A stretch of 64,000 nucleotides of DNA from Ekhidna lutea. GTDB lineage: Bacteria; Bacteroidota; Bacteroidia; Cytophagales; Cyclobacteriaceae. The stretch is from assembly GCF_900188325.1 (NCBI RefSeq), contig NZ_FZPD01000005.1, forward strand, positions 248,001-312,000, written 5' to 3'. A program made the translations under genes and the position numbers. Below, in pieces: positions 20,392 to 47,784 of this stretch (positions are counted from its first letter, which is position 1; each line of letters starts with the position of its first letter). Below the pieces are notes generated by a model. That model worked only from the letters and a program-made list of their open reading frames with translations. It made no database searches and was not told the DNA's origin.

Positions 20392-20405
20392 CTGATGATA
20401 ATCAT
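20392..20405. promoter_or_regulatory. FNR/CRP-like box before the REC-Crp regulator
   Basis: CTGAT-GATA-ATCAT, perfect TGAT-N4-ATCA core, between the regulator gene (minus) and the small PLDc_N gene (plus). Confidence 0.55.
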
Positions 20406-20475
20406 CGGAAAGGCTAAGCTAACTCATGAAATGCCGTTATAAAATCAGATTACTTTGGAAGAAAAAGATACAAAG

Positions 20476-20679
20476 ATGAATTACTGGATGTTTATTTCTT
20501 TAGTCGCAGCAGCAGTGGCTGTGTATGGTATGATTGATGTTTTAAGGGCACGTACCTCGAATAATAAAAAAATGTTATGGTTCGCTATAATTGTATTGCT
20601 TCCCCTGATTGGACCATTAAGTTACTTATTCAGGAAACGGTCTATTGTGGAAACTGGTGGAGAGGAAGCGAAAGGGTAA
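20476..20679 (+). CDS. Small membrane protein with PLDc_N-type domain
   Basis: 67 residues from ATG 20476; an in-frame TTG at 20455 would add seven polar residues. Two TM segments flank a short loop (MNYWMFISLVAAAVAVYGMIDVL and KKMLWFAIIVLLPLIGPLSYLF). The LLPLIGPLSYLFFRKR-like end is characteristic of the phospholipase D/cardiolipin-synthase N-terminal domain found as a stand-alone membrane protein. Its 3' end overlaps the end of the histidine kinase gene on the other strand by 38 bp. Role unknown. Confidence 0.7.
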   Translation: MNYWMFISLVAAAVAVYGMIDVLRARTSNNKKMLWFAIIVLLPLIGPLSYLFRKRSIVETGGEEAKG

Positions 20680-21955
20680 ATGTACTTCCTTCGCCTTCTG
20701 AACTTTTGAATGAAATTTGCCCATTTAATAGGTCCGTATATTTCTTTACAATGTTCAATCCAAGACCAGTACCCTGGATATTGGTTGCATTGGTAGCTCT
20801 GAAAAAGCGATCGAACATTTTTGACTGATCTGTTTCCGGAATACCAATGCCATGGTCTATTATATGAACATTAAGTTGATTTCCTAACTCAATATTTACT
20901 TCAATTTCGTCTCCTTCATTGGAATACTTACTTGCATTAGAAATCAAATTGAAAAGTATATTTTTTAATATGTGATCATCAGCCTGTATGCCTGGAGCTT
21001 CTCCGTTTAATATAATCTTTTGATCTTTTTTTAGATTCTCACTCATTTCCTCAATCACTTCTTTGAGAAGTCCACCGACATCCACTTCGTGGAAAGAGGC
21101 TTTTTGCGCACCACTTTCCAGCTTTTCCAGCGAGAGGAAATCATTGAGAATGTTAGTTAGGTTCTGAACGCTTTTTCGTATGCGATTGATGTGTTTTTCC
21201 CTTGCTTCCTGCTGGTCCGATTCGGTGTATTTTGCAATCAGGTTGGCGGATGAAAGGACAGTCGTCAGAGGGGTTCTGAATTCATGGCTGGCCATCGATA
21301 CAAACCGGGATTTTAGCTCACCCAGTTCTTTTTCTTTCTCAAGAGATTTTAAGATTTCCTGCTCCGCTTTTTTAAGGTCTTCCAGGCTTTGCTTCAAGGC
21401 TTCTTCAGCTAGCTTGCGTTCCTGAATCTGGCTTTGAAGTCCCAGGTTCATGTGTTCCAGCTCACTGGTTCTAGCCTTTACTTTCTGCTCAAGTTCGGAG
21501 GTGTATTCTTCAAGCTTTTTTCGTTGCTCCTCCAACTTCTTTTCGTTTTCTTTTCGAACTGATATATCGGTGATAAATGCAACAACAAGCTTCTCCTCTC
21601 CATACTGCATATAGCTGAGACTTATTTCCAGGGGAAACATGGTGCCATCTTTTCTAAGACCAGCCAGATCTCTCCCCACACCCATTCTGCGTGGTTCTGG
21701 GTGATCGATGTACTTTTTTCGGTCTTCAACGTGTTTTTTCTGTGAATTTCTGGGAACGAATTTTTCCACTTTTTGGCCTAGCACTTCTCCTTCATCATAT
21801 CCGAACATCTCTCTTGCTCTCGGGTTAGCCATGACAACTTCTCCCTCTTGATTGAAAAGCATGATGCCTTCACCAGAACTCTCAAACAGGCTCTTGAGAA
21901 GCTCTAGTCCTTCATTTGAGACAATCTCCTGACTACCGAGTTTTATCTTATTCAT
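20642..21955 (-). CDS. PAS-domain sensor histidine kinase, soluble
   Basis: 437 residues: PAS (about 15-135, with the NPRAREMFGYDEGEVLGQ motif), a long coiled coil (135-212), HisKA with H224 (MASHEFRTPLT) and HATPase_c with N box (NLISNASKYS), G1 (DHGIGIP) and G2 (GTGLGL). There are no membrane segments, so it senses a cytoplasmic signal such as redox state or a bound ligand. PAS residues that would fix heme or flavin cannot be assigned by eye. It is adjacent to the receiver-Crp regulator and divergent from the usp-ccoI unit, so it is the likely kinase of the block. Confidence 0.9.
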   Translation of the reverse strand: MNKIKLGSQEIVSNEGLELLKSLFESSGEGIMLFNQEGEVVMANPRAREMFGYDEGEVLGQKVEKFVPRNSQKKHVEDRKKYIDHPEPRRMGVGRDLAGLRKDGTMFPLEISLSYMQYGEEKLVVAFITDISVRKENEKKLEEQRKKLEEYTSELEQKVKARTSELEHMNLGLQSQIQERKLAEEALKQSLEDLKKAEQEILKSLEKEKELGELKSRFVSMASHEFRTPLTTVLSSANLIAKYTESDQQEAREKHINRIRKSVQNLTNILNDFLSLEKLESGAQKASFHEVDVGGLLKEVIEEMSENLKKDQKIILNGEAPGIQADDHILKNILFNLISNASKYSNEGDEIEVNIELGNQLNVHIIDHGIGIPETDQSKMFDRFFRATNATNIQGTGLGLNIVKKYTDLLNGQISFKSSEGEGSTFTLSLPLHQFPQ

Positions 21956-22006
21956 TCCTGCTAAGTAAGCCTATCAGTAGCAATGTGACAAAATTCAATG
22001 TTAGCA

Positions 22007-22020
22007 TTGACGAATATCAA
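22007..22020. promoter_or_regulatory. FNR/CRP-like box before usp-ccoI
   Basis: TTGAC-GAAT-ATCAA. A -7 box TAGTTTTG (22043-22050) follows, so the centre lies about 43 bp before the expected start point, the class II activator position. It may also serve the divergent histidine kinase. Confidence 0.65.
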
Positions 22021-22042
22021 CTTCAAGGTTTTGTAAGCTCTC

Positions 22043-22050
22043 TAGTTTTG
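22043..22050 (+). promoter_or_regulatory. -7 promoter box (TAGTTTTG) of the usp-ccoI unit
   Basis: Matches TAnnTTTG. It lies 20 bp before the GTG start of the stress-protein gene and downstream of the FNR-like box. Confidence 0.5.
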
Positions 22051-22069: not shown

Positions 22070-22516
22070 GTGATCACGAGTATATTAATCCCTACAGATT
22101 TTTCTCCTGCTTCCTGGAATGCTACACAGGTAGGAATAGAGCTATATCAGCATTACAAAGAAGCTTCCATTTCTTTCTTGCACGTTTATCCCGATTCCTC
22201 AAGGTACTCAGGAAAGGAATTACCAAATGTTACAGAAAGTCAGTTGCAACAGTTCAAAGAACGAATGAATCACCTATCTCAAAATTTGATTGACTTTTCT
22301 GATGACAAAATTCAGAATGTAGTGCTCACAGGAAATGTGGAGAAAACCATACTCCAGTTTATCAAAGATCATCAATTCGATTTGGTGATAGTAGGAATTA
22401 ATAGCAATGGGTCAACCAATGAAATTGGGAGTCATACCGTCAAAGTCATCAGGGAAAGTGGTGTGCCGGTGATGATCGTACCTAATCGCACATCGCATGG
22501 AGCTATTGCAAGCTGA
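22070..22516 (+). CDS. Universal stress protein, single domain
   Basis: 148 residues from a GTG start. The UspA fold is shown by ILIPTDFSPASWNATQV at the N-terminus and the end motif VIVGINSNGSTNEIGSHTVKVIRESGVPVMIVP. The ATP-binding G-2x-G-9x-G(S/T) pattern is only partly kept (GINSNGSTNEIGSHT). Its 3' end overlaps ccoI by 20 bp, so both are co-translated. Usp proteins are commonly induced by low oxygen or energy stress, in line with the upstream FNR-like box. Confidence 0.85.
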   Translation: MITSILIPTDFSPASWNATQVGIELYQHYKEASISFLHVYPDSSRYSGKELPNVTESQLQQFKERMNHLSQNLIDFSDDKIQNVVLTGNVEKTILQFIKDHQFDLVIVGINSNGSTNEIGSHTVKVIRESGVPVMIVPNRTSHGAIAS

Positions 22517-24872
22517 GGATATCAAGTGTGAACACTGTGGGGATCTGTGTGATGATTCAATACAAGCCAGTGATCACCATTTTTGCTGCTACGGCTGCAG
22601 GGCAGTTTATGAATTGCTGGACCAAAGCAATCTCAATCAGTACTATTCGGAAACGTCAAAGGAAAACAAATCATTATCGGAACTAAAAGCCGAACGTAAA
22701 TTCGCCTTTCTGGATAATGAGGATATTCAAAATCAGTTACTGAGATTCAGGAGCGAAGAAGTATCAGTAGTGAAGTGGTTTCTTCCGAGCATCCATTGTA
22801 GCTCATGCATTTATTTATTGGAGCATTTACCAAAACTGGATCAAGCAGTCGTTCGATCAGAGGTGAATTTTGTGAAACGGGAGGTAGTAATCACCTTTGA
22901 TCATCATCAAAAGTCATTAAAGAACCTCGCAGTTCTCCTTTCGCAATTAGGCTATGCTCCTGGGATTACACTTGATAGTCTGGACAAGACTAAGAAGCAG
23001 GTGATTAAATCCAGCATCGGTACAAAGATCGCTGTGGCCGGATTCTGTTTTGGAAACGCTATGCTTATGAGCATGCCCGAGTACCTGGATAGCAATTTTC
23101 TATTGACCAACGATTTTAAATCTGTCTTCAGCTGGATCAATTTAGCCCTTGCATTCCCTGTTCTATTTTATTCAGCTAGCGACTATTTCAGCAAAGCGTG
23201 GAAAGGCATTCGATTTGGGAATCTGAATATTGACGTGCCAATTGCTTTGGGAATTCTGACACTCTTCGGTAGGAGTGCTTATGAAATTATATCCGCAGTA
23301 GGTGCAGGATATGTAGATTCATTGGCTGGTCTGGTTTTCTTTCTATTGATTGGTAAATGGTATCAGGGAAAAACGTACCAGGCACTTTCCTTTGATCGGG
23401 ATTTTACTTCTTATTTTCCGGTTTCTGTTACCTGTTCGGTTAACGGTGAGGAGATACAACGATCATTGAAAGATTTGAAAAAAGGAGATGTAGTTGTCAT
23501 TCATAATGATGAATTGATTCCGGCTGATGGTATGATCAAAGCTGGTAAGGGAAACATAGATTACAGTTTTGTGACAGGGGAGTCCCGACCAGAATTCAAA
23601 GAGCCCGGACAAAAGGTATTCGCCGGAGGAAGACAAAAGGGAGGTGAGCTGGTCATCGAGCTGAGTGAGACTGTCAACAATAGCGAGCTGACAAGTGTTT
23701 GGAACGCAAATGCTTCAGGTGAAAATGAGAAAGTCAACCTGCATAACTGGGTGGATAAAATCAGTAAGTATTTCACCATGACCATCATTTTGCTTGCTGT
23801 CTTAACAGCAGTTTTTTGGTGGATTAAAGATCCGACGCTCATCTGGAACTCCGTAACGGCTGTTTTGATTGTGGCATGCCCGTGTGCCCTTGCGCTCGTG
23901 TTACCCTTCTCGTACGGTCATGCCATGCGCAAACTGGGAAAACTTGGACTATACCTAAAAAATGCAGAGGTGATTGAATCGATAGCAAAAGTAGATGCAA
24001 TCGTTTTTGATAAGACCGGAACCCTCACGACGACAGAGGCTGGAATTGATTATTCGGGCGATGTGATTGATGGAAGGGAGATGATTTGCCTTAAGTCGGC
24101 AATCGGTAACTCAGCACATCCACTAAGCAGAATCATTCATTGTGAATTGCCCCAAAGTGAGAAACGACCAATCAGTCAGTTTGAAGAAATAACTGGAAAA
24201 GGGTTTGAGGCGAATGTGGATGGGGTGATTATCAAGGTTGGTTCCGCTGAGTACCTGGATTTGGCTACCAATGATTCCGGCATCAATGAGTCCAGAGTAT
24301 ATGTGTTGGTGGGAAGTAAAAAAGGCTTTTTCACGATAAGATCAAATTACCGGAAGGGCGTTTTCGAAATGCTAAATAATCTGAAAAACAAGTACCTGTT
24401 GAGTTTGTTATCCGGAGATAATTCAGCTGAAAAGCATATTCTTGAGCCATATTTTAATGATGTTTTTTTCAATCAAAAACCAATGGATAAATTGGTATAC
24501 CTGAAAAAGAGTGATAAGCATCAGCTGATGGTAGGAGACGGGCTAAATGATGCCGGGGCACTCAATGAGGCATCTGTTGGTATCGCCATTTCTGAAGATA
24601 TTCACCAGTTTTCACCTGCTTGTGATGCCATTCTTGCTTCTGAGAAAGTTACCTCCATTCCGAATATTTTGAAATTTTCGAAGCAAGTCATAAATGTTGT
24701 ATTCATCGCTTTTGGAATCTCATTTCTTTACAACATTGTCGGACTTACTTTTGCTATGTCAGGGCATTTAACACCATTGATTTCAGCAATCCTGATGCCT
24801 GTCAGTTCAGTCACGGTTGTTGGATTTGTAACACTTATGGTAGGTTGGATTGGAAGGAAGCTGACCTATTAA
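22497..24872 (+). CDS. ccoI: Cu+-exporting P-type ATPase for cbb3 oxidase assembly
   Basis: 791 residues. An N-terminal cysteine-rich metal-binding region (C11xxC14, then C30-C31-x-x-C34) is followed by an HMA-like domain with C101xxC104, eight membrane helices, a TGES actuator motif, the CPC copper site C461-P-C463, the phosphorylation site D505-KTGT and GDGLNDAG. The N-terminal FCCYGC motif marks the FixI/CcoI subgroup, which supplies copper to the CuB site of cbb3 oxidase from the inner membrane, rather than CopA. ccoS and ccoNO follow 5 kb downstream. The 3' end overlaps the convergent thioredoxin gene by 4 bp. Confidence 0.93.
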   Translation: MELLQAEDIKCEHCGDLCDDSIQASDHHFCCYGCRAVYELLDQSNLNQYYSETSKENKSLSELKAERKFAFLDNEDIQNQLLRFRSEEVSVVKWFLPSIHCSSCIYLLEHLPKLDQAVVRSEVNFVKREVVITFDHHQKSLKNLAVLLSQLGYAPGITLDSLDKTKKQVIKSSIGTKIAVAGFCFGNAMLMSMPEYLDSNFLLTNDFKSVFSWINLALAFPVLFYSASDYFSKAWKGIRFGNLNIDVPIALGILTLFGRSAYEIISAVGAGYVDSLAGLVFFLLIGKWYQGKTYQALSFDRDFTSYFPVSVTCSVNGEEIQRSLKDLKKGDVVVIHNDELIPADGMIKAGKGNIDYSFVTGESRPEFKEPGQKVFAGGRQKGGELVIELSETVNNSELTSVWNANASGENEKVNLHNWVDKISKYFTMTIILLAVLTAVFWWIKDPTLIWNSVTAVLIVACPCALALVLPFSYGHAMRKLGKLGLYLKNAEVIESIAKVDAIVFDKTGTLTTTEAGIDYSGDVIDGREMICLKSAIGNSAHPLSRIIHCELPQSEKRPISQFEEITGKGFEANVDGVIIKVGSAEYLDLATNDSGINESRVYVLVGSKKGFFTIRSNYRKGVFEMLNNLKNKYLLSLLSGDNSAEKHILEPYFNDVFFNQKPMDKLVYLKKSDKHQLMVGDGLNDAGALNEASVGIAISEDIHQFSPACDAILASEKVTSIPNILKFSKQVINVVFIAFGISFLYNIVGLTFAMSGHLTPLISAILMPVSSVTVVGFVTLMVGWIGRKLTY

Positions 24873-26571: not shown

Positions 26572-26638
26572 GGCATGAAGTTAGTGAATAATAACAGACT
26601 ATTTTAGGAGATAAACATGATCATAATCCGCTTCTGAA

Positions 26639-26652
26639 CTGACTAAAATCAG
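26639..26652. promoter_or_regulatory. FNR/CRP-like box between the beta-CASP and osmC genes
   Basis: CTGAC-TAAA-ATCAG, symmetric outer bases. A weak -7 box (GTGCTTTG, 26675-26682) places it about 43 bp before an osmC start point. It may act on both directions. Confidence 0.6.
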
Positions 26653-26709
26653 CGAAGATTCAGAGCAAATGAATGTGCTTTGTACATAAAAATTAAACCT
26701 TCTATTATT

Positions 26710-28941: not shown

Positions 28942-28955
28942 ATGATATTAGTCAG
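28942..28955. promoter_or_regulatory. FNR/CRP-like box before the ric operon
   Basis: On the minus strand CTGAC-TAAT-ATCAT. A -7-like sequence (ATTCTTTG on the minus strand, 28914-28921) places the box centre near -41.5 of the ric operon. Confidence 0.6.
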
Positions 28956-29714: not shown

Positions 29715-29728
29715 ATGACAAAAATCAT
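29715..29728. promoter_or_regulatory. FNR/CRP-like box before the cco operon
   Basis: ATGAC-AAAA-ATCAT. With TAATCTTG (29773-29780) as -7 element, the centre is about 65 bp before the start point, a class I activator position. Confidence 0.6.
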
Positions 29729-29790: not shown

Positions 29791-30000
29791 ATGAGTGTCA
29801 TATTTATTCTCATCGCATGTAGCCTGTTATTGGCAGGTACCTTCCTTGGAGCATTCCTCTGGGCTTCTCGCTCGGGGCAGTTTGAGGATGATTATACACC
29901 CTCTGTCCGTATCCTTTTTGAAGATGAAGAACCTTCGGTCTCTTCCAAAAATATCAGTAATAAACCTAGTGACCAATGTCAGAAAACAGCCAAAAAGTAG
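29791..30000 (+). CDS. ccoS: cbb3 oxidase maturation protein CcoS
   Basis: 69 residues: one N-terminal TM helix and the family signature FLWASRSGQFEDDYTPSVRILFEDE. CcoS is needed for cofactor insertion into CcoN. The gene overlaps the start of ccoNO by 25 bp. First gene of the operon ccoS-NO-Q-P-G-H. Confidence 0.92.
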   Translation: MSVIFILIACSLLLAGTFLGAFLWASRSGQFEDDYTPSVRILFEDEEPSVSSKNISNKPSDQCQKTAKK

Positions 30001-32144
30001 GTCTGGAGACCTTCCATTATGACAACACCACGGTTCGAAATTTCCTAATTGCCACCACGGTATTCGGGATTATCGGCATGTCGGTGGGACTTCTTGTTGC
30101 ATGCCAGTTCGTGTGGCCTGAAGCCAACTTCGGATTGCAATATACCACCTTCGGTAGAGTAAGACCACTGCATACTAACGCAGTGATTTTTGCTTTTGTG
30201 GGGAATGGAATTTTTGCCGGTGTATACTACTCACTTCAGCGATTGTGCAAAGCACGGATGTATAGCAATCTGCTCAGCAAGATCCATTTCTGGGGCTGGC
30301 AGTTGATCATTCTTTCGGCAGCTATTACGCTTCCTTTGGGCTTTACTTCGGGAAAGGAATACGCAGAGTTAGAATGGCCAATTGATATCGCAATTGCCTT
30401 GATCTGGGTGGTGTTCGGTCTTAATATGTTTATGACCATCGTCAAGCGAAGAGAACGTCACTTGTATGTAGCTATTTGGTTCTACATCGCCACTTTCGTG
30501 ACGGTAGCCATGCTACACATTGTCAACTCATTTGAGTTGCCAATTGACTTCATGAAGAGTTACTCCTGGTATGCTGGTGTACAAGATGCATTGGTGCAGT
30601 GGTGGTATGGTCACAATGCAGTTGCATTCTTCCTGACCACTCCATATCTGGGTTTGATGTACTATTTCATCCCGAAAGCATCCGGTCGACCGATCTACTC
30701 ATACAGACTTTCAATCATTCACTTCTGGGCATTGATTTTTATTTATATCTGGGCTGGCCCACACCACTTACTATATAATGCTTTGCCTGACTGGGCACAG
30801 TCACTGGGAGTGGTATTCTCAGTAATGCTACTGGCGCCTTCCTGGGGTGGAATGCTAAATGGACTTTTAACGCTTCGTGGAGCATGGGATAAGGTTCGTG
30901 AAGATGCCATCCTAAAATTCATGGTTGTTGCACTTACATGTTATGGAATGGCCACATTCGAGGGTCCTTTATTGTCACTTAAAAATGTGAATGCGATTGG
31001 TCACTTTACCGATTGGATTGTAGCGCACGTGCACGTGGGTGGACTGGGCTGGAATGGATTCCTGACCTTTGCCATGCTTTATTACCTGATTCCAAAGATG
31101 TATGGCACTAAGCTTCATTCACAAAAACTGGCCAATGTTCATTTCTGGATCGGAACAATGGGAATTTTGTTTTACGCAATCCCAATGTACTGGGCAGGGT
31201 TTACTCAAAGCTTAATGTGGAAACAGTTTAACCCGGATGGTACGCTTGTATACAGCAACTTCCTTGAAACTGTAACGCAGATCATCCCGATGTATGCGCT
31301 GAGAGCATTCGGCGGTTTGCTTTATCTCAGCGGTGTGTTTGTGATGGTATTCAACCTAGTGAAGACAGCTCGCTCAGGCAAATTCCAACCTAGCACCGAG
31401 GCACAGGCTGCACCATTGATGAAAGACTACAAACCTGAAAAGAGTGAGCACTGGCATAGAAGAATATTTGAATGGAAGCCGGTACGAATGCTTGTATGGA
31501 GTTTGATCATAGTAGCTATTGGAGGGGTGATTGAAATCGTACCAACCTTTTTAATACAAAGCAATGTACCCACCATTTCTACTGTGAAACCATATACAGC
31601 GCTGGAATTGAATGGACGTGATATCTATGTAAGGGAAGGTTGCTACACCTGTCACTCCCAGATGATACGGCCATTCAGGTCAGAGGTAATGCGATATGAC
31701 CCTGTGGATTTAGAATACTCAAAAGCGGGAGAGTTTGTATACGATCATCCGTTCCAGTGGGGATCCAAGCGAACAGGACCAGACCTGCATAGACTTGGAG
31801 GAAAATATCCGGATAGCTGGCACTTCTACCATATGCTGGATCCAACAAGCATGTCTCCGGGTTCAATCATGCCACCATATCCATGGCTCTTTGAGCAGGA
31901 GTGGGACAAGAAGCGAATACCGGCCAAGATTCGCGCCATGCAAACACTAGGTGTTCCGTATCCAGAGGGTTTTGATCAACAGGCGGTGGCGGATGCCGAA
32001 AATCAGGCGGCTTTGATTTCTAAAGGTCTGGAACTTGAAGGAATCAAGATGAGCAGTGATGCTGAAATCATTGCACTGATTGCCTACCTGCAACGGTTGG
32101 GCACTGATATTAAAAATGTGGAAGGAGTAGCTGAAGGGAACTAA
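29976..32144 (+). CDS. ccoNO: cbb3-type cytochrome c oxidase, fused subunits I and II
   Basis: 722 residues. Residues about 15-480 form the 12-helix CcoN subunit with heme and CuB histidines (RPLHTNAVIF, WWYGHNAVAFFLT, AGPHHLLYN, VAHVHVGGLGWNG). After one more helix (about 505-525) comes a CcoO domain with one c-type heme site C556-Y-T-C559-H560 and the methionine segment PGSIMPPYPWL. The N-O fusion is the common state in Bacteroidota. The enzyme reduces O2 with high affinity and pumps protons across the inner membrane. Confidence 0.97.
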   Translation: MSENSQKVGLETFHYDNTTVRNFLIATTVFGIIGMSVGLLVACQFVWPEANFGLQYTTFGRVRPLHTNAVIFAFVGNGIFAGVYYSLQRLCKARMYSNLLSKIHFWGWQLIILSAAITLPLGFTSGKEYAELEWPIDIAIALIWVVFGLNMFMTIVKRRERHLYVAIWFYIATFVTVAMLHIVNSFELPIDFMKSYSWYAGVQDALVQWWYGHNAVAFFLTTPYLGLMYYFIPKASGRPIYSYRLSIIHFWALIFIYIWAGPHHLLYNALPDWAQSLGVVFSVMLLAPSWGGMLNGLLTLRGAWDKVREDAILKFMVVALTCYGMATFEGPLLSLKNVNAIGHFTDWIVAHVHVGGLGWNGFLTFAMLYYLIPKMYGTKLHSQKLANVHFWIGTMGILFYAIPMYWAGFTQSLMWKQFNPDGTLVYSNFLETVTQIIPMYALRAFGGLLYLSGVFVMVFNLVKTARSGKFQPSTEAQAAPLMKDYKPEKSEHWHRRIFEWKPVRMLVWSLIIVAIGGVIEIVPTFLIQSNVPTISTVKPYTALELNGRDIYVREGCYTCHSQMIRPFRSEVMRYDPVDLEYSKAGEFVYDHPFQWGSKRTGPDLHRLGGKYPDSWHFYHMLDPTSMSPGSIMPPYPWLFEQEWDKKRIPAKIRAMQTLGVPYPEGFDQQAVADAENQAALISKGLELEGIKMSSDAEIIALIAYLQRLGTDIKNVEGVAEGN

Positions 32145-32156
32145 AAACGTACAACT

Positions 32157-32348
32157 ATGCTGAAATTTATCAAACATCATATGGAGACCATCGCAGGGAT
32201 AGAGATCTATCCCGTGATCTCCTTCGTCATCTTCTTTGTCTTTTTTATCGCATTGACAATTTATGTTTTGAAAGTAGACAAGAAGCTTTTCAATGACATT
32301 TCAAATATTCCTTTGGACTCAAACGATACCGATCATGAAGATGCTTAA
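32157..32348 (+). CDS. ccoQ: CcoQ-like small subunit
   Basis: 63 residues with one TM helix (about 18-40) and an acidic C-terminus, placed between ccoNO and ccoP as in other cbb3 loci. ATG 32157 and ATG 32181 (METIAGIEI) are both possible starts. The end overlaps ccoP by 14 bp. Identity rests mainly on size, topology and position. Confidence 0.75.
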   Translation: MLKFIKHHMETIAGIEIYPVISFVIFFVFFIALTIYVLKVDKKLFNDISNIPLDSNDTDHEDA

Positions 32349-33306
32349 GTATTTACTCATAACAGTAATGGTAGCTCTGCCCGGACTTTCTTTCGGGCAG
32401 GATGCTCCACAGCAAAGCTTTTTTGAGCTATATAAGGTGGAGATTATTCTTGCACTCATTGTCATGATTTGTGTAGTAGTGGTGTCTGCCATGTTCATCC
32501 TCTTGATGGCATTAAAGGCTGTACTTAGACTTAAACGTGCCGAAATGGGCATAGAGGAAGAGGAGAAGGAATTAATTCCAGCTAAAGAAGGGGAAGAGCA
32601 TGTTGGTTTCTGGAGAAAGTTCTGGAATAGGATCAATGCCTCTGTTCCGGTTGCACAAGAGCATGAAGTGGCAACCAGCCATGAGTACGATGGCATACGG
32701 GAGCTGGACAACAAACTTCCACCTTGGTGGCTTTATAGTTTCTATATCTCAATCGTTTTCGCAGTGTTTTACCTGATCAATTATGAGGTACTTGGTACCG
32801 GTCAAAATCAAGAGGAAGAGTTTCAGGCCGAGATGATAAAGGCAGAAGAAGATGTAAAGACCTATTTGGCATCACTGAGTGAATTAGTGGACGAAAGCAA
32901 TGTCACTTTGACAACAGAAACAGCAGATCTGGATGCAGGTAAGGCTATTTATGAGCAAAACTGTGGAGTGTGCCACGCAGCAGATGGCGGTGGCGGTGTA
33001 GGTCCCAATTTTACCGATAAATACTGGCTACATGGTGGAGATATGTCATCCATTTTTAAAACCATTAAATATGGAGTTCCGTCAAAGGGGATGATTGCCT
33101 GGGAAGCGCAGCTTTCGCCTAAAAAAATACAACAGGTAGCCAGCTACATATATATGATGGAGGGCAATGCAGCTGAAAATCCTAAGGAGCCTCAAGGCGA
33201 CTTATTTGAGCGAAATGATGCTGAAGAGACAAGTGACGAGGATGCTGACACCAATCCGGATTCCGTGGATGACGAAGCAGACCTGGAAGAAGGGGAGTGT
33301 TGCTAG
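32335..33306 (+). CDS. ccoP: cbb3 oxidase subunit III (cytochrome c), single heme site
   Basis: 323 residues from ATG 32335, which gives a clean signal peptide (ALPGLSFGQ); an upstream in-frame ATG lies inside ccoQ. Two membrane segments (about 30-55 and 133-152) frame a conserved CcoP_N motif (HEYDGIRELDNKLPPWWLY). Only one CxxCH is found (C210-G-V-C213-H214), whereas proteobacterial CcoP has two hemes. A methionine in SKGMIAW can be the axial ligand. The tail is very acidic and ends in Cys-Cys. It passes electrons to CcoO. Confidence 0.92.
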   Translation: MKMLKYLLITVMVALPGLSFGQDAPQQSFFELYKVEIILALIVMICVVVVSAMFILLMALKAVLRLKRAEMGIEEEEKELIPAKEGEEHVGFWRKFWNRINASVPVAQEHEVATSHEYDGIRELDNKLPPWWLYSFYISIVFAVFYLINYEVLGTGQNQEEEFQAEMIKAEEDVKTYLASLSELVDESNVTLTTETADLDAGKAIYEQNCGVCHAADGGGGVGPNFTDKYWLHGGDMSSIFKTIKYGVPSKGMIAWEAQLSPKKIQQVASYIYMMEGNAAENPKEPQGDLFERNDAEETSDEDADTNPDSVDDEADLEEGECC

Positions 33307-33325
33307 TCCAATATTGGGAATATAA

Positions 33326-34753
33326 ATGGCTGACGTAAAAGATATATATCAGGAGCAGGAGAGCGCTGAGGAAACGTTTCGAGATCACCTATCCACGGTG
33401 GATAAAGAGGGGAAACGTGTGTGGGTGTACCCCAAAAAACCGCGGGGTAAGTTCACCAACTATCGATCGTTAGTCAGTTATCTCCTGCTATTGTTACTAT
33501 TTGGTGCACCATTTATTAAAATAGATGGTCAGCCTTTTCTGCTCTTTAATGTTTTTCAAAGAAAGTTCATCATTTTCGGACAGGTATTCTGGCCGCAGGA
33601 TTTCTTTCTGTTTGTGATTGGCATGCTGGCCTCACTGGTATTTATCATTCTCTTCACTGTAGTATTCGGTCGTATTTTCTGTGGATGGATTTGTCCGCAG
33701 ACCATTTTCATGGAGGGAGTTTTTCGAAAGATAGAGTACTGGATTGAGGGGGATTACATGGCTCAGCGAAAACTGGATAAACAACCATGGGATAGGGAGA
33801 AACTTGTTAAAAAGTCGGTAAAACACACGCTTTTCATCATGATAAGTGTGTTGATCATGCACACCTTCATGGCCTATATGGTAGGGGTGGATGAGGTTTG
33901 GAATATTATAGAGGAGGGACCTGGAGAAAATACTGCAGGCTTCATCGCAATGTTCGTATTTACCGGACTGTTCTATGGTGTTTTTAGTCAGATGCGAGAG
34001 CAGGTTTGCACGACAATATGTCCATACGGAAGGCTGCAAGGCGTATTGTTGGACAAGCAAAGTGTGGTAGTGGCCTATGACCATGTACGAGGTGAGCCGC
34101 GGGGCAAGTTTAGAAAGGGAGAAGACCGTGAGGTAGTTGATAAAGGTGATTGCATTGATTGCAATCAGTGTGTGTACGTATGCCCGACTGGCATTGATAT
34201 TCGCAACGGCACACAACTGGAGTGTGTGAACTGTACGGCATGCATCGACGCATGTGATTCAATCATGGATCGAATAGGCAAACCACGAGGGTTGGTTCGA
34301 TACGCCTCTGAAGAAAACATAGTCGAGAGAAAGCCCTTTCACTTCACAGTGCGGATGAAAGCCTATTCGGGAGTTCTTATCCTTTTGGTTGGTGTGCTGA
34401 TTACATTATTGCTTGTGCGTTCTGATTTTGAAACCACCATTTTGAGAACCCCAGGAATCCTTTATCAGGAAAGAGAAGACGGTATGATCACGAACCTGTA
34501 CCAGGTGAAATTGGTGAACAAAACCAATGACGCTATGGATGTGCGCTTTGAGCTTATTGAACCAAATGGTAGAATAGAAATGATCGGAGGTGCTATCGAT
34601 TTAGTAGAGCAGGGGATAGGTGAGGGCGCTTTTTTCATCATCATGGATCCGAAAGACATTGAGAAAATGAGCACTATGGCAACCATTGGGGTGTATTCAG
34701 GTGATGAGTTAGTAGAAACCGTCGAGACTAAATTTTTGGGACCAACGAACTAG
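33326..34753 (+). CDS. ccoG: cbb3 oxidase accessory protein CcoG (polyferredoxin)
   Basis: 475 residues: five TM segments, the FixG/RdxA motifs CGWICPQTIFMEG and CTTICPYGRLQGVL, two 4Fe-4S clusters (CIDCNQCVYVCPTGID and CVNCTACIDACD) and a C-terminal Ig-like FixG domain facing the periplasm. CcoG reduces copper for delivery to the oxidase. 19 bp downstream of ccoP. Confidence 0.95.
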   Translation: MADVKDIYQEQESAEETFRDHLSTVDKEGKRVWVYPKKPRGKFTNYRSLVSYLLLLLLFGAPFIKIDGQPFLLFNVFQRKFIIFGQVFWPQDFFLFVIGMLASLVFIILFTVVFGRIFCGWICPQTIFMEGVFRKIEYWIEGDYMAQRKLDKQPWDREKLVKKSVKHTLFIMISVLIMHTFMAYMVGVDEVWNIIEEGPGENTAGFIAMFVFTGLFYGVFSQMREQVCTTICPYGRLQGVLLDKQSVVVAYDHVRGEPRGKFRKGEDREVVDKGDCIDCNQCVYVCPTGIDIRNGTQLECVNCTACIDACDSIMDRIGKPRGLVRYASEENIVERKPFHFTVRMKAYSGVLILLVGVLITLLLVRSDFETTILRTPGILYQEREDGMITNLYQVKLVNKTNDAMDVRFELIEPNGRIEMIGGAIDLVEQGIGEGAFFIIMDPKDIEKMSTMATIGVYSGDELVETVETKFLGPTN

Positions 34754-34796
34754 ATAATTGAGAATTGATAATGAATAATTGACAATTAAAGAATTG
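34754..34796. repeat. AATTGA-rich spacer between ccoG and ccoH
   Basis: 43 bp made of imperfect repeats of AATTGA/AATTATCA type (GATAATTGAGAATTGATAAT...). Such repetitive AT spacers are frequent in Bacteroidota genomes and can act as mobile small repeats. No promoter box was seen. Confidence 0.45.
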
Positions 34797-35228
34797 ATGA
34801 ATATGAACTGGGGAAATAAAATTGTAGTAGCATTTGTGCTCTTTGCAGCGTTCATTGGTTACATGGTAGTCAAAGCGTTTCAGGAGGATTTCGATCTGGT
34901 AGCGGAAGACTACTACGCACAGGAAATCAATTACCAGCAAAAACTAAACAGACTTTCCAATGCTTCTGAGGAAGGAAAGGAGGTATTGGTTAGCCAAAAA
35001 GACGGAGGAGTACACCTGACTTTCCCTGATAAGGGGACAACAGGGACAATCCATTTCTATCACCCGTCGAGGAAGATGTTTGATCGTACGTTTGATATTG
35101 ATTTATCAGACAGTCAGATCCAAAAGATCGATCGGTCAGAATTGATAGCCGGTAGTTATCGAGTCAACATTACCTGGCAGACAGGAGAAGAAGATTTTTA
35201 TCAGCAATCCAGCATTTACATCCAATGA
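34797..35228 (+). CDS. ccoH: FixH/CcoH family cbb3 assembly protein
   Basis: 143 residues from ATG 34797; ATG 34803 is equally possible, and a TTG at 34779 would fall in the repeat. One N-terminal TM helix (KIVVAFVLFAAFIGYMVVKA) is followed by the typical EDYYAQEINYQQKL motif and a periplasmic beta domain. It is needed for oxidase stability. The stop overlaps the next start by 4 bp. Confidence 0.88.
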   Translation: MNMNWGNKIVVAFVLFAAFIGYMVVKAFQEDFDLVAEDYYAQEINYQQKLNRLSNASEEGKEVLVSQKDGGVHLTFPDKGTTGTIHFYHPSRKMFDRTFDIDLSDSQIQKIDRSELIAGSYRVNITWQTGEEDFYQQSSIYIQ

Positions 35229-35905
35229 TAGGTGCATTCATCATCGGGTTATTTGGGAGCTTGCACTGTGTGGGCATGTGTGGTCCGGTGATGATGGCCT
35301 TTATGGGCCCTAGGCAATCTAAGACAGGTTTTGTGATGTACCATTCAGGTAGAATTCTCACTTATGTTTTGATTGGCCTGATTTTAGGACTAATTGGAGC
35401 AACAGTAGCCCTTTTCCAACTTCAGCAAATTTTAGCATTTGTTCTGGGCTTTGGCTTGATTGTCCTTTACGGAATTCCATCAATTAGGCATCAGCTGGAG
35501 CGCTTTTACTACGAGTCAAAATTTTATCATTTCTTGAAGTCATTCCTTTCAAAGAACCTTTCCATGCGAAGGCGTTGGTTTTTGAGTGGAATCGCCAATG
35601 GCTTTTTTCCGTGTGGATTGACTTATGTCGCTGCTGCGGGTGCAGTCGCGATAGGAAACTCTCTTGAAGGAGCTGCATTCATGGTGCTATTCGGACTTGG
35701 AACACTACCTGCCTTGATCACCCTTTCTTTCGCAGGGAATGTATTTTCCAGCCGATTGAAATCAATTATCCCTAGATCCATTCCTATTATTGCTATTGCC
35801 TCCGGGCTGCTTTTGATTACCAGAGGACTACTGACCACCTCCCCTCAATTTAATCAATTGGTTCAAGCCAATGCAGCTGGATTAATTACGGTTTGTGGAC
35901 TCTAA
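35225..35905 (+). CDS. TauE/SafE-like (DsbD-like) membrane protein of the cbb3 locus
   Basis: 226 residues, six TM helices. The signatures GSLHCVGMCGPVMMAFMG and GFFPCGLTYVAAAGA are those of the 'sulfite exporter TauE/SafE' group regularly encoded after ccoH. Conserved Cys and Met in helices I and IV suggest copper or thiol transfer for oxidase assembly, but this is inference. Translationally coupled to ccoH. Confidence 0.85.
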   Translation: MIGAFIIGLFGSLHCVGMCGPVMMAFMGPRQSKTGFVMYHSGRILTYVLIGLILGLIGATVALFQLQQILAFVLGFGLIVLYGIPSIRHQLERFYYESKFYHFLKSFLSKNLSMRRRWFLSGIANGFFPCGLTYVAAAGAVAIGNSLEGAAFMVLFGLGTLPALITLSFAGNVFSSRLKSIIPRSIPIIAIASGLLLITRGLLTTSPQFNQLVQANAAGLITVCGL

Positions 35906-35925: not shown

Positions 35926-35939
35926 CTGATATAAATCAT
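35926..35939. promoter_or_regulatory. FNR/CRP-like box before hemN
   Basis: CTGAT-ATAA-ATCAT. The -7 box TAGCTTTG (35984-35991) places the centre about 65 bp upstream of the start point, as for the cco operon. Confidence 0.6.
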
Positions 35940-36007: not shown

Positions 36008-37351
36008 ATGCAAGACCTGAAGAAATACAACCAACCTGTTCCAAGATATACAAGCTATCCCACCGTTCCATTCTGGGAGCCGGAAAGCTTCTCTATTCAA
36101 TCCTATGAAAAGACATTGCAGTCGGCTTTCTGGGAGAGTAGCAAAGAGGTGAGCATCTATATTCACTTGCCCTTTTGTGAGAGCTTGTGTACGTATTGTG
36201 CCTGCAATACCAGGATCACTAAAAACCATCAGGTAGAAGAACCATACATTGATCATTTATTGATGGAGTGGGAGTTGTATTTGGAAAGACTTCCTGAAAA
36301 ACCATTGATTAGAGAAATTCATCTGGGTGGCGGGACACCAACTTTCTTCGCTCCGAAAAACCTCAATCGATTGCTTTCGGGGATCATTGAAAAGGCTACA
36401 CTCTCCAAAGAATTTCAGATGTCGTTCGAAGGGCACCCGGCCAACACCACAGCCAAACATCTGGAGACCTTACATCAGCTGGGCTTTGATCGCGTCAGCT
36501 TTGGTATTCAGGATTTTGATCTGAATGTTCAGAAACTAATCAACCGCATGCAGTCATTTGAGCAGGTAAAAGCGATTACTGAGAAGGCACGAGAGATAGG
36601 ATATTCTTCGGTAAACTATGATGTGGTTTATGGTTTGCCCGGACAAACCATTGAATCCGTCCGGAATACATTGAATCAAATTATTGAATTGAAGCCGGAA
36701 CGTATTGCATACTACAGCTATGCGCACGTTCCTGCCATGCGACCGGCACAGAAATCGTATGAGCAGTACTTACCTGATGAAGACAAAAAATGGAGATTTA
36801 TGCAGCTGGGAAAAGAGGCTTTTACTCAGGCAGGCTATGAAGAGGTGGGTATGGATCATTACGTGTTGCACGGCGATGAATTGCTGGAGGCTCGCAAAAA
36901 CGGTGAGCTCCATAGAAACTTTATGGGCTATACGCCATTTACCAGCAAGCTGCTTATAGGGTTGGGGGTGAGTTCCATCAGCGATAGCTGGTCAGGCTTT
37001 GCTCAAAATGAGAAGAGTATCCCAAAATACTATGAATACCTGGATCAAAATCAGCAACCAATTATTAAAGGACACATCCATACCAAGCAAGATCTGTTTT
37101 TCAGAAAGCACATCTTGAATTTGATGTGTGATTTTGAAACGACATGGCATGAGTCTGAATTCCTGGAACATTGCGTGGCGCTTAATTACAAATTGCTTGA
37201 TCAGCTGCAGGAGGAGGGACTCATTATGTATGATGAAACCGGAATGAAGGTCTTACCTCAAGGCCGTGAAGTGATTCGCGTGATTTGTACTGCCTTGGAT
37301 GCAAGAATGAGCAGGAGCAATCGAGCGCAACAGTTTAGTAAGGCAGTTTAA
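36008..37351 (+). CDS. hemN: Oxygen-independent coproporphyrinogen III dehydrogenase
   Basis: 447 residues. The radical-SAM cluster cysteines C57-x3-C61-x2-C64, followed by C66, sit in HLPFCESLCTYCACN, and GGGTPTFF follows, as in genuine HemN rather than HemW. It converts coproporphyrinogen III to protoporphyrinogen IX without oxygen, providing heme for the oxidase and cytochromes at low oxygen. It has its own promoter with an FNR-like box. Confidence 0.95.
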   Translation: MQDLKKYNQPVPRYTSYPTVPFWEPESFSIQSYEKTLQSAFWESSKEVSIYIHLPFCESLCTYCACNTRITKNHQVEEPYIDHLLMEWELYLERLPEKPLIREIHLGGGTPTFFAPKNLNRLLSGIIEKATLSKEFQMSFEGHPANTTAKHLETLHQLGFDRVSFGIQDFDLNVQKLINRMQSFEQVKAITEKAREIGYSSVNYDVVYGLPGQTIESVRNTLNQIIELKPERIAYYSYAHVPAMRPAQKSYEQYLPDEDKKWRFMQLGKEAFTQAGYEEVGMDHYVLHGDELLEARKNGELHRNFMGYTPFTSKLLIGLGVSSISDSWSGFAQNEKSIPKYYEYLDQNQQPIIKGHIHTKQDLFFRKHILNLMCDFETTWHESEFLEHCVALNYKLLDQLQEEGLIMYDETGMKVLPQGREVIRVICTALDARMSRSNRAQQFSKAV

Positions 37352-43887: not shown

Positions 43888-44324
43888 GCACTATGAGATT
43901 AATAAATGCAATGCTGTTGTCACTCTTTGTTTTATCCTGTAGCACGGGTCCAAAACCCATATATTATGGACAGGACGCATGTGTTTTCTGCAAAATGACC
44001 ATTGTGGATAAGCAACATGCTGCACAACTGGTCACAAAAACTGGTAAGGCCTTTAAGTATGATGCCATTGAGTGTATGCTCAATGATCTGAAGGAATGGG
44101 AACATCCGGAGGTTCAACACTACCTCGTTGCTGATTATGCCAATCCCGGCGTATTGACAGATGCCTCTGGTGCTGCTTATTTGATATCTCAGGAAATCCC
44201 CAGCCCCATGGGTGAATTCCTTACGGCATTTGAAAGTGAGGATAAACGAAACGAGACAGTGCAGGATGTATCCGGGACCGCCCTGGATTGGAAGGCTTTA
44301 AAAGTAGAATTTGAAGTTAATTGA
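43884..44324 (+). CDS. nosL: NosL copper chaperone lipoprotein
   Basis: 146 residues. Lipobox LFVLSC. The NosL motif DACVFCKMTIVD with the Cys-x-x-Cys and Met that bind Cu(I), and AIECMLNDL, are clear. NosL delivers copper for CuZ assembly. The start overlaps the upstream stop by 4 bp. Confidence 0.92.
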   Translation: MSTMRLINAMLLSLFVLSCSTGPKPIYYGQDACVFCKMTIVDKQHAAQLVTKTGKAFKYDAIECMLNDLKEWEHPEVQHYLVADYANPGVLTDASGAAYLISQEIPSPMGEFLTAFESEDKRNETVQDVSGTALDWKALKVEFEVN

Positions 44325-44329
44325 GTTAG

Positions 44330-45556: not shown

Positions 45557-46269
45557 TTCAAGTTACAGATCTAAATAAAAGCTTTGGCAAATTGGAGGTA
45601 TTGAAAGGTGTGAGCTTTTCAATTAATCGTCCCGGTGTTTTCGCGGTTCTTGGGCACAATGGATCCGGCAAAACAACGCTACTAAAAACCATTTTGGGTA
45701 TGGTCATTCCTAATAATGGCGAACTTCAGGTCAATGGAGCAGCCATTAAAAGAAGCTGGGAATACCGAAAGGACATAGCTTACTTACCACAGATTGCTCG
45801 TTTTCCGGAGAACTTGACAGTCAATGAGCTTATCAAGATGATTTTAGACATTCGAAATCGGAAGGGTAGAGAGGTTGAGCTAATTCAACGTTTTGGATTG
45901 GAGAAATTTCTGGATAAGAAACTGTCTGATCTTTCCGGGGGTACAAGACAGAAGGTGAATATCGTGTTGGCATTTATGTTCGATGCAAACATCTGCATCA
46001 TGGATGAACCTACGGCCGGACTGGATCCGGTGGCACTCATAGAGTTAAAGAAGCTGATTGAAGAAGAACGTGAGAAAGGTAAAACCATACTCATAACCAC
46101 ACACATTATGAGCCTGGTAGAGGAGGTGGCCGAAGAGATCATCTTCCTGCTGGATGGTAAGATTCATTTTCAGGGAACATTGGAAGAGATGCAAAAACAG
46201 ACGAATGAAAAAGATTTGGAACACGCAATCGCAGCGATGCTTGTGCCTAATGGCACACATAATCATTAG
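45553..46269 (+). CDS. nosF: NosF ABC transporter ATPase
   Basis: 238 residues with Walker A (GHNGSGKTTLL), signature LSGGTRQKVN, Walker B (ANICIMDEPTAGLDP) and H-loop (TTHIMS). It energises the NosDFY complex for NosZ copper-sulphide cluster assembly. Confidence 0.95.
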   Translation: MIQVTDLNKSFGKLEVLKGVSFSINRPGVFAVLGHNGSGKTTLLKTILGMVIPNNGELQVNGAAIKRSWEYRKDIAYLPQIARFPENLTVNELIKMILDIRNRKGREVELIQRFGLEKFLDKKLSDLSGGTRQKVNIVLAFMFDANICIMDEPTAGLDPVALIELKKLIEEEREKGKTILITTHIMSLVEEVAEEIIFLLDGKIHFQGTLEEMQKQTNEKDLEHAIAAMLVPNGTHNH

Positions 46270-46335
46270 AGAATTGAATTGATAAAGAAATGGCTAGAAC
46301 TAAATGCTATCCGTCTCGAGCTTAATACGAATACG

Positions 46336-47118
46336 ATGATCAAAATATTAAAATACAGCTTTTACGATTTAATGCGTAGCAGATGGAGCTACGTGTACCT
46401 GGCATTTTACATGCTTTTGGGATTCGTTTTGCTTTTCCTTAATTCAGACCTATCGAAAGCAACCATTACCTTGATGAATATCATAGTGGTACTTACCCCC
46501 ATGATCGGAACCATCTTTGGAATTATGTATTTCTATAACTCCCGTGAGTTTACGGAGCTATTGCTCTCACAACCCGTGAAGCGTTCCACCATTTTTCTTG
46601 GACAATACCTGGGCCTGTCACTCTCACTCTCCATGAGTTTAATTATCGGGCTAGGCATACCCTTTCTAATGTATGGGATCACTCAATCAGATGCGGTTGG
46701 CAACTTTATCACACTGCTTGCGTCTGGCACATTTCTCACGTTCATTTTCGTGGCTTTGTCCCTTAATATTGGTCTTGGTAACTCTAACAAAATCAAAGGT
46801 TTTGGCTATGCCATTTTGATGTGGCTCTTTTTTGCGGTGATCTATGATGGACTATTTATGATTTCACTAATCGTTTTTGGAGACTATCCGTTGGACAAGT
46901 TTGCTCTTGGAGCTTCGCTTTTTAATCCGATTGATTTGAGTCGTATCATGATTTTACTCAAACTGGAGATTTCAGCGCTTCTCGGATACACAGGTGCATT
47001 GTTTCAGAAATTTTTTGGCACCAATTTAGGAATACTCATTTCAGTTGGTGTGCTGCTGCTTTGGATATTTATTCCTGTGATGCTCATGCTTCGAAAATCG
47101 CTTAGAAAGGATTTTTGA
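46336..47118 (+). CDS. nosY: NosY ABC transporter permease
   Basis: 260 residues from ATG 46336 (an earlier in-frame start at 46279 adds a polar, unlikely N-terminus). Six TM helices. Motifs FYNSREFTELLLSQPVKRSTIFLGQYLGLS and the NPIDLSRIMILL loop are those of NosY. End of the nos operon. Confidence 0.93.
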   Translation: MIKILKYSFYDLMRSRWSYVYLAFYMLLGFVLLFLNSDLSKATITLMNIIVVLTPMIGTIFGIMYFYNSREFTELLLSQPVKRSTIFLGQYLGLSLSLSMSLIIGLGIPFLMYGITQSDAVGNFITLLASGTFLTFIFVALSLNIGLGNSNKIKGFGYAILMWLFFAVIYDGLFMISLIVFGDYPLDKFALGASLFNPIDLSRIMILLKLEISALLGYTGALFQKFFGTNLGILISVGVLLLWIFIPVMLMLRKSLRKDF

Positions 47119-47121
47119 GGC

Positions 47122-47148
47122 AAAAAAAAGGAGACTGCTAAGCCTCCT
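47122..47148 (-). terminator. Terminator of the cysteine-dioxygenase-like gene
   Basis: On the minus strand AGGAG-N10-CTCCT followed by seven or eight T. The stem overlaps the last codons of the gene, a compact arrangement. Confidence 0.65.
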
Positions 47149-47677
47149 GTCTAAGTAAATTGTAGTTCTTGTTTTCCCAGGTCTCCATCATGGTACTACT
47201 AGAACTCCCTTCGTCATACACATGCCACTCAGCGACTGGTTTACGATAGATGTTTAAGCTAACGGAACGGGCTTTGTTGGCATTGGAATACCGATGAATA
47301 CCGATTTGATTCATGTATGAAAACTCATCGTTCCCCAAAAGCATATTACTTACTTTTTCCAATCGATCGTCATCAACATTGATCTTGAATCGCTCTTCTC
47401 TAAGCATCCCTTCAATCGGGTGAATCCATGCCTCCTGGGCATTGAAGTCATGAATAGGAGAGGACTGGCCTTTTTCCCAGCAGACCAGTAGCACCTCAAA
47501 ATCATCATTTCGTGCCAGCACATTTCTTGCTTGTTTCTCGTCACTCCATGAATAGTATTTTTCAAACTCTTCACGAGGTATCTCCACATTGGTCATTACA
47601 TCCAGCACATGATTCCCTGATTCCACGCAATTGTTAAGAGCATTTACCAGCTGCTCAACTGTTCTAATCGTTTCCAT
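47138..47677 (-). CDS. Cysteine dioxygenase-like cupin protein
   Basis: 179 residues from ATG 47677; the frame extends upstream to 47812 without similarity. Cysteine dioxygenase features: VCWEKGQSSPIHDF with H76, cupin-type E82, GIHRYSN with H128, and the SLNIYRKP tyrosine region. The second iron histidine of mammalian CDO (H-D-H) is Phe78 here, so the metal site differs. It may oxidise cysteine or another thiol, or act as an oxygen-dependent N-terminal cysteine oxidase. It shares the control region with the stress proteins and its FNR-like box. Confidence 0.7.
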   Translation of the reverse strand: METIRTVEQLVNALNNCVESGNHVLDVMTNVEIPREEFEKYYSWSDEKQARNVLARNDDFEVLLVCWEKGQSSPIHDFNAQEAWIHPIEGMLREERFKINVDDDRLEKVSNMLLGNDEFSYMNQIGIHRYSNANKARSVSLNIYRKPVAEWHVYDEGSSSSTMMETWENKNYNLLRQEA

Positions 47678-47770
47678 AATCGAATATTTTTTGATTAAAG
47701 CCAAGTTAGGTGTCAGCTCCACAAGGAATTGTGATAATTGCCACTTGGCAAGCTGAGATTCATCAGTCGG

Positions 47771-47784
47771 ATGACGTAAATCAG
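47771..47784. promoter_or_regulatory. FNR/CRP-like box before the usp pair
   Basis: ATGAC-GTAA-ATCAG. The -7 box TACTTTTG (47829-47836) puts the centre near -65, equal to the cco and hemN promoters. Confidence 0.65.

Follow-up and report, generated by a model that had tools for sequence, protein, structure and literature searches.

The window analysed here is a 64,000-nucleotide stretch of Ekhidna lutea DNA (RefSeq assembly GCF_900188325.1, contig NZ_FZPD01000005.1, positions 248,001 to 312,000) from a source genome of 4.23 Mb in 16 contigs, and our subject is the set of FNR-type boxes that it carries among genes of low-oxygen respiration, together with a gene encoding a Crp-family protein fused to a receiver domain (REC-Crp). 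According to our analysis, which rests on sequence, the boxes mark a real regulon with a sharp promoter code, and an FNR-type dimer, most likely REC-Crp phosphorylated by a FixL-related kinase, probably activates low-oxygen genes through them. The features are given below with their window coordinates. Boxes were searched as TGAY-N4-RTCA, the base outside TGA not being part of the pattern; -41.5 and -63.5 are positions of the box centre; -7 elements are matches to TAnnTTTG, with the number of bases matched out of six; and usp denotes universal stress protein.

19304..20350, minus strand: REC-Crp regulator, 348 amino acids (aa), with Pfam Response_reg, cNMP_binding and HTH_Crp_2; predicted reader of the boxes
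20393..20404, plus strand: box CTGATGATAATCAT, centred at -63.5 with respect to the -7 element TTACTTTG (20450-20457, 5 of 6) of the small PLDc_N gene
20476..20679, plus strand: PLDc_N membrane protein gene (Pfam), 67 aa, unlisted earlier; convergent with the kinase gene
20642..21955, minus strand: PAS histidine kinase, its PAS domain related to that of FixL, with Arg89 at the FixL heme-ligand position
21986..21997, plus strand: weak usp-ccoI partner box TGACAAAATTCA (1 mismatch) at -63.5, its distance from the main one being exactly 22 bp
22008..22019, plus strand: main usp-ccoI box TGACGAATATCA at -41.5, with -7 element TAGTTTTG at 22043-22050 (6 of 6)
22070..24872, plus strand: usp and ccoI-type heavy-metal P-ATPase, target operon (Pfam; the name ccoI is from context)
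26618..26629, plus strand: weak osmC partner box TGATCATAATCC (1 mismatch), offset by 22 bp relative to the main one
26640..26651, plus strand: osmC box TGACTAAAATCA, with a poor -7 element GTGCTTTG (26675-26682, 4 of 6) on the osmC side
28943..28954, minus strand: hyp28424-ric box, weakly supported, with no good -7 element at the canonical distances
29716..29727, plus strand: cco operon box TGACAAAAATCA at -63.5, with -7 element TAATCTTG (29773-29780, 5 of 6)
29738-29749: weak cco partner box (2 mismatches)
29791..30000, plus strand: ccoS, 69 aa, first gene of the cco operon, unlisted earlier (FixS, E = 3.9e-21; TIGR00847 over cut-off)
29976..35905, plus strand: ccoNO (fused), ccoP, ccoG, ccoH and a DsbD_2 membrane protein
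35927..35938, plus strand: hemN box TGATATAAATCA at -63.5, with -7 element TAGCTTTG (35984-35991, 6 of 6)
35949-35960: weak hemN partner box (2 mismatches)
36008..37351, plus strand: hemN, oxygen-independent coproporphyrinogen III oxidase (TIGR00538 over cut-off)
47772..47783, plus strand: usp pair box TGACGTAAATCA at -63.5, with -7 element TACTTTTG (47829-47836, 6 of 6)
47794-47805: weak usp pair partner box (2 mismatches)
47834..49631, plus strand: two double-usp genes (Pfam Usp)

The window contains 19 exact matches to the pattern, against 7.23 +/- 2.59 in 100 dinucleotide shuffles (largest, 15); with curated genes, 9 of the 19 are intergenic and 10 lie within open reading frames (ORFs). 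Seven of them had been named in the original prediction as upstream boxes of a single respiratory regulon, and all seven are exact where they were placed, the 12-mers starting at 20393, 22008, 26640, 28943, 29716, 35927 and 47772. That they always lie upstream has to be qualified for 47772, which falls 29-40 bases inside the CDO ORF as called (47138-47812, minus strand) and is upstream only of the divergent usp pair; where the CDO gene begins is uncertain, its homology to each of four relatives starting at a different query residue (2, 20, 37 and 39). A candidate box at 29970 was rejected since it falls in the ccoS/ccoN overlap. In a spacer control with automatic gene calls, covering 5.7 kb of intergenic window DNA, the N4 spacer gave 8 matches and the 12 other spacers between 0 and 12 gave 0 to 3 each. 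A 400-kb sample of the same genome yielded 2 N4 matches in 30 kb of intergenic DNA, which corresponds to a rate ratio of 21 for the window over the sample (Fisher p = 1.4e-5), and the coding densities are alike, with 11 matches (0.19/kb) in the window and 60 (0.16/kb) in the sample. Because the intergenic ratio of 21 goes with similar coding densities, the block is a local concentration of boxes, and the comparison of upstream and coding DNA that had been proposed as a check does not show the equal density that would have refuted the prediction: coding matches are at background, and intergenic ones are about 21-fold denser than in the genome sample.

The boxes share a fixed arrangement with the promoter element. 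The logo of 94 ortholog sites, from which identical upstream regions and hits under the identity cut-offs were left out, reads [A/C]TGAY-WWWW-RTCA[T/G], the commonest bases next to TGA on its outer side being C (41 sites) and A (36), ahead of G (10) and T (7). Measured from the centre of these 94 boxes, a TAnnTTTG match of at least 5 of 6 starts at 29.5 bp in 26 and at 51.5 bp in 29, with no other distance above 4. A second box with up to two mismatches stands at +22 in 40/92 and at -22 in 28/93 (one pair can count in both), the next-best offsets being found in 7/92 and 5/64; the difference between 51.5 and 29.5 is 22, equal to the box-to-box spacing. In the map of transcription start sites (TSS) of Flavobacterium psychrophilum, TAnnTTTG spans -12 to -5 (PMC9723704; for this and the other papers cited, the statements refer to the portions of text available), and therefore the box centres come to lie at -41.5 and -63.5, positions calibrated to the published map of another species and not of the source organism. 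The activator positions of the original prediction, -41 and about -65, thus hold and are sharpened by our analysis; the -7 boxes that it placed for the ric and osmC boxes at -41 to -44 do not, both boxes being without a good -7 element. A box centred at -41.5 with a second box upstream, as found here, is the feature of class II or tandem Crp-type promoters, and -41.5 and -63.5 are activator positions which leave the -7 element and the start free.

The same spacing recurs outside the set of orthologs. Among the named REC-Crp loci, the best 80 of 580 relatives from a contig scan (1.33 Mb), an exact TAnnTTTG lies at 51.5 bp 49 times and at 29.5 bp 28 times, other distances reaching at most 5, and boxes with N3, N5 or N6 spacers give no distance peak. 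Two of these loci (L245 and L246) repeat G005 and G002 of the first set; the 78 loci left without them give 49 and 26, and the 56 loci left without Mucilaginibacter give 21 at each distance, with 4 at the next. In ten genomes of the genus, 108 matches with gaps of 23 to 45 include 20 at gap 23 and 19 at gap 45.

Conservation upstream of orthologous genes, another check put forward with the original prediction, is found in the genus for cco, hemN, usp-ccoI and the usp pair, and not for ric, which has no close orthologue there (best genus hits, 24 to 35% identity). An exact box precedes ccoNO in 6/6 genus relatives having the gene, in 12/15 REC-Crp genomes outside the genus (within 600 bp; one miss has only 116 bp upstream) and in 14/20 genomes without REC-Crp (within 800 bp). 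In the 450-bp ccoNO regions the exact box is found in 33/41 and wrong spacers in 0 to 6 of 41; the ccoNO fragment of G013 (L135) was dropped from a set of 21 loci, as were weak non-orthologous hits. For hemN, all six genus relatives having the gene carry the exact box, and an exact box is also present in 8/8 genus relatives with the usp before ccoI, in 4/4 relatives read for the usp pair and in 1/1 (G005) for osmC. Of nine more distant ric loci, three are boxless and two combine a box at -41.5 with a perfect -7 element, the box being exact in one of these two and having 1 mismatch in the other. The kinase, REC-Crp and usp genes remain together across the genus. As for the box at 20393, its assignment to the REC-Crp gene was not borne out: the -7 element at the right distance is on the plus strand, on the PLDc_N side, and the PLDc_N reading fits better, as in G005 and G007, where the same geometry occurs with 5-of-6 elements. 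Four other relatives have a similar small ORF without an exact box, so that the exact box is found in 2/6.

REC-Crp is the best candidate reader of the boxes. It shows the features of the Crp/FNR superfamily, a cNMP-type barrel and HTH_Crp_2 both over the Pfam cut-off, and the Asp, Thr and Lys of an intact receiver (DIMMP, TAK and TKP) together with the adjacent kinase gene make it a putative two-component response regulator. The whole 351-aa frame has one Cys, within the receiver motif CDIMMP, and the N-terminal cysteine cluster ligands of the iron-sulfur (Fe-S) FNR are not present. By helix alignment its recognition helix is TATESVIR, in which the Ile is found in 24/29 REC-Crp rows and is Val, Asn or Ser in the other 5. 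The protein was matched near full length in 29/59 genomes searched, its own included, and the closest named loci, among the best 80 of 580 relatives, are a 'Cytophagaceae bacterium' chromosome, an Ekhidna metagenome-assembled genome (MAG) and Marinoscillum. In the draft G009, REC-Crp is the sole HTH_Crp_2 protein over the cut-off and the usp-ccoI promoter is kept; in the draft G008, which has neither REC-Crp nor any HTH_Crp_2 protein over the cut-off, 0/5 gaps are canonical, too few to count alone. The REC-Crp gene is preceded by a perfect composite of box and -7 element in seven of the 80 named loci (at -41.5 in L258, L276, L287, L295, L296 and L308, at -63.5 in L310), which suggests that REC-Crp may activate its own gene there. 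The original choice of REC-Crp as the regulator is therefore retained as the best candidate, on the strength of G009 and the seven self-promoters; it need not be the only reader, given the cysteine FNRs of related genera and L004 described below.

The PAS domain of the neighbouring kinase is closest to FixL among PDB structures (E = 4.1e-16), and its Arg89 maps to the FixL heme ligand, which we take to be His200. To place this substitution we considered 109 REC-Crp loci, some of them repeats, in which a kinase homologue lies within 4 kb in 69; the 40 loci without one include contig-end cuts, and a few kinases aligned poorly. The heme-ligand position in the 69 kinases is R in 43, H in 18, K in 6, I in 1 and Q in 1. 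The 18 His kinases, 16 of them from Mucilaginibacter, one from Flavihumibacter and one from Pedobacter, have PHIIGIGRE-like sequences. FixL-type heme sensing via the usual ligand is rejected for the source species.

From boxes, spacings, conservation and domains we infer binding, phosphorylation, activation and the low-oxygen signal as follows. A dimer bound at -41.5 would be in direct contact with RNA polymerase and would be assisted by another at -63.5, which would lie exactly 22 bp further upstream on the same DNA face (class II plus class I contacts). The adjacent FixL-related kinase would phosphorylate and switch on REC-Crp, and sensing would sit in the kinase, not in an iron-sulfur cluster of the regulator. 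The targets would be the genes of the cbb3 oxidase and of its maturation (ccoS and ccoI), together with hemN, usp genes and probably hemA.

Several observations weigh against this reading. Gap 24 is also raised in the genus (14/108, every further gap at most 6), and TAnnTTTG of 5 of 6 or better is missing at both distances in 39/94 ortholog boxes, partly because the regions were cut at the start codon. Outside the genus the exact hemN box is found in 6/13 (within 600 bp), and upstream of the REC-Crp gene of Cytophagales an exact box is found in 4/30, equal to the commonest wrong spacer; other orders differ in this. The two other gap-23 matches of G009 have no evident target. Heme-based oxygen sensing by the kinase here appears doubtful, because its PAS domain has Arg at the FixL heme-ligand position. 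The boxes do not name their reader, because the single-domain FNR-like proteins of relatives share the helix type and similar boxes, and a second candidate reader, L004 (211 aa, helix VETVIR), is encoded in the same genome.

L004 is one of four HTH_Crp_2 proteins of the genome, the other three than REC-Crp having no N-terminal CxxC that could be seen by eye. It lies with L221 near 433860-434104 of G000:C9, where the gene of this E-x-x-I-R protein is followed by a box one mismatch from canonical; the 134-aa ORF that comes next has no Pfam match. L004-like proteins in G003 and G007 adjoin the canonical promoter of a YgaP-like gene. In the single-domain FNR-like proteins the E-x-x-I-R helix occurs in 18/20 and 5 to 8 cysteines in 16/20, the other four (L174, L177, L178 and L190) having 0 to 3. 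One such protein aligned with the FNR crystal sequence has Ile at FNR's Ser, and the first cysteines align. A tree built from 65 Crp parts gives no firm branching order for REC-Crp and cysteine FNRs at its deep nodes, with 11 open forks and several very long branches, L408 and L004 being the longest.

The alternative that survives best, although it is an unlikely one, takes the boxes as real FNR-type activator sites read mainly by L004, or by L004 together with REC-Crp, for instance in response to nitric oxide, with REC-Crp controlling something else. The E-x-x-I-R helix of L004 is like that of REC-Crp, ric and nos genes share the block, and G003, G004, G005 and G007 have HTH_Crp_2 proteins (207 to 259 aa), assumed to be L004 orthologues, that adjoin a canonical -41.5 promoter, which precedes the YgaP-like gene in G007 and G003. 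However, G009 keeps its usp-ccoI promoter with no HTH_Crp_2 protein over the cut-off other than REC-Crp, and the neighbours of usp in the genus are REC-Crp and the kinase, not L004. It is much less probable that the boxes serve mainly for repression or anti-activation by a Crp-family protein that is active in air: sequence cannot give the direction of control and paired boxes could also block access, but the boxes stand at activator positions with the -7 element and start left free. Moreover, the targets resemble the FnrL set of Rhodobacter sphaeroides, in which ccoNOQP, uspA, hemA and hemN are marked + (PMC2908626). That the boxes are chance matches, picked afterwards from AT-rich intergenic DNA, is very nearly excluded: the seven were chosen from 19 and ten matches lie within ORFs at background density, but other spacers are unenriched, the genome sample is 21-fold poorer in matches per intergenic base, the boxes are kept at orthologous promoters and the promoter-element distance is fixed to the base, so that chance is refuted in the main by the spacer and distance analyses, and the spacer control, genome sample and conservation agree with the earlier judgement that seven upstream boxes are unlikely by chance.

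Activation by REC-Crp through such boxes would reach beyond the window. The claim that the block forms one regulon stands insofar as FNR-type boxes occupy activator positions and are conserved, and fails insofar as the regulon is not confined to the block, which holds three of the five perfect composites genome-wide; the other two precede a YgaP-like membrane gene and paaE. The composite at paaE (G000:C7:467689-467753) is a perfect one at -63.5 and stands before paaE-paaA, which encode phenylacetyl-CoA epoxidase and belong to a pathway that uses oxygen. Composites with one mismatch number 31 in the genome; in 25 the box is within a gene, and these are taken as chance, and three of the 6 intergenic ones are in the window. 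Reversed-pattern controls gave 2 and 9, compared with 14 and 22 for the composite pattern. The hemA box is one base off, at -42.5, and three relatives have matches with the hemA-box gap and similar sequence, which may or may not belong to hemA there. Canonical matches at L415, L416, L417 and L418 have no ORF of at least 60 aa within 350 bp downstream. At L414 (G001:C184) two exact boxes, at -63.5 and -41.5, precede a membrane-like protein, and a perfect -63.5 promoter common to G007 and G002 (L412 and L413) lies about 200 bp before a small protein.

A perfect composite is found at 72 promoters in the 80 named loci; 28 of these stand before genes like those of the window (nine REC-Crp-like, six usp, three kinase and ten other genes) and 44 do not. 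The nine REC-Crp-like targets are seven REC-Crp and two single-domain Crp proteins (L271 and L280). By eye, 17 of the 44 other targets start like D-2-hydroxyacid dehydrogenase, two of which were checked with Pfam; further targets tested were acetyl-CoA hydrolase/transferase, alcohol dehydrogenase, a PNPOx-like protein and YceI, and one 588-aa target protein has no Pfam match. These targets suit low-oxygen metabolism. Within L271-L322, from Sphingobacteriaceae and Flavihumibacter, the gene after REC-Crp often encodes a D-2-hydroxyacid dehydrogenase and carries a perfect -63.5 promoter.

Some details of the window's genes remain. The ccoI-type ATPase matches the NCBIfam heavy-metal P-type ATPase models below their cut-offs. 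The 254 bp from the cco box to ccoN are explained by the ccoS gene, which begins just after the -7 element. The true start of the usp pair is probably later than the listed TTG, since the latter overlaps the -7 element; at the usp pair promoter of G001, G005, G006 and G007 the canonical -63.5 box is preceded by another exact one, 15 to 18 bp and not 22 bp further upstream. Two adjacent genes at 37359-38663 have the 4HB_MCP_1 sensor domain as their sole Pfam match, and a 2039-aa ORF spans 11858-17977. A Sec-type nosZ cluster (TIGR04246 over cut-off) lies behind an Rrf2 regulator at 39580-47118. The gap before rrf2 in the window has no box; an exact box stands before rrf2 in G001, G006 and G007 and before a cytochrome c gene in G005.

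For Bacteroidota, little seems to have been described of the way in which low oxygen turns on the cbb3 oxidase. The flavobacterium study of TSS and expression found that cbb3 and heme genes are raised when oxygen is low, and no word starting with 'crp' or 'fnr' occurs in its main text, as available (PMC9723704). A receiver-Crp regulator in Bacteroidota appeared in no title or abstract opening among the matches listed in the open literature. The promoter grammar predicts regulon members and transcription starts to the base, and it is testable against TSS maps. More tentatively, as a conjecture that may equally well fail, in several Bacteroidota orders a one-step system of FixL-like kinase and receiver-fused FNR would have taken over, or would share, the promoters of Fe-S FNR through a rigid tandem spacing (dimers at -63.5 and -41.5, separated by 22 bp, at promoters with TAnnTTTG), with self-activation in some lineages; some kinases (18/69, 16 of them from Mucilaginibacter) would keep the heme ligand and sense oxygen directly, and the window lineage with Arg would sense something else. 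The system described here also offers a parallel to the way FixLJ-FixK replaced FnrN in Caulobacterales (PMC4999443), reached here by domain fusion.

Among known systems, FNR and FnrL of Proteobacteria (TTGAT-N4-ATCAA) are alike in the core TGAY-N4-RTCA, the activator positions and the targets, and FnrL of R. sphaeroides binds at ccoNOQP, uspA, hemA and hemN (PMC2908626). They differ in the outer base, which is typically T in FNR sites, as in the Rhodobacter FnrL list (PMC2908626), whereas it is A or C in 77/94 of our boxes and T in 7/94; the outer A of the other side occurs in 10/94 and both outer bases in 2. The regulators differ as well, REC-Crp having a receiver domain and no N-terminal cysteines. 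The FNR recognition helix is E-x-x-S-R, of which REC-Crp keeps E and R and has Ile in place of Ser. REC-Crp falls outside the Fe-S FNR family, because the defining features of that family were tested and not found in it. The single-domain FNR-like proteins of other Cytophagales are alike in the E-x-x-I-R helix and in similar boxes at cco; they differ in having no receiver, and the 16 cysteine-rich ones among the 20 probably sense through cysteines. Meta-regulon predictions for CRP/FNR in MAGs of Flavobacteriales and Saprospiraceae likewise give Crp/FNR targets in Bacteroidota, but they use a MalR matrix from Bacteroides and, in the text available, name no receiver-fused regulator or promoter spacing (PMC8510549). 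The FixL-FixJ-FixK system of Alphaproteobacteria appears alike in its PAS kinase, FixL being nearest to ours, and in a Crp-family output without Fe-S under presumed two-component control with FNR-like sites; in Caulobacterales, FixLJ-FixK replaced FnrN (PMC4999443). It differs in that receiver and Crp output are fused here in one protein with no FixJ-to-fixK transcription step, and in that the proximal heme histidine is replaced by Arg in the window lineage. Because the heme histidine and a separate FixJ were tested for and not found, the window system is not a FixLJ-FixK cascade; as far as its sequence tells, it works like FNR/FixK.

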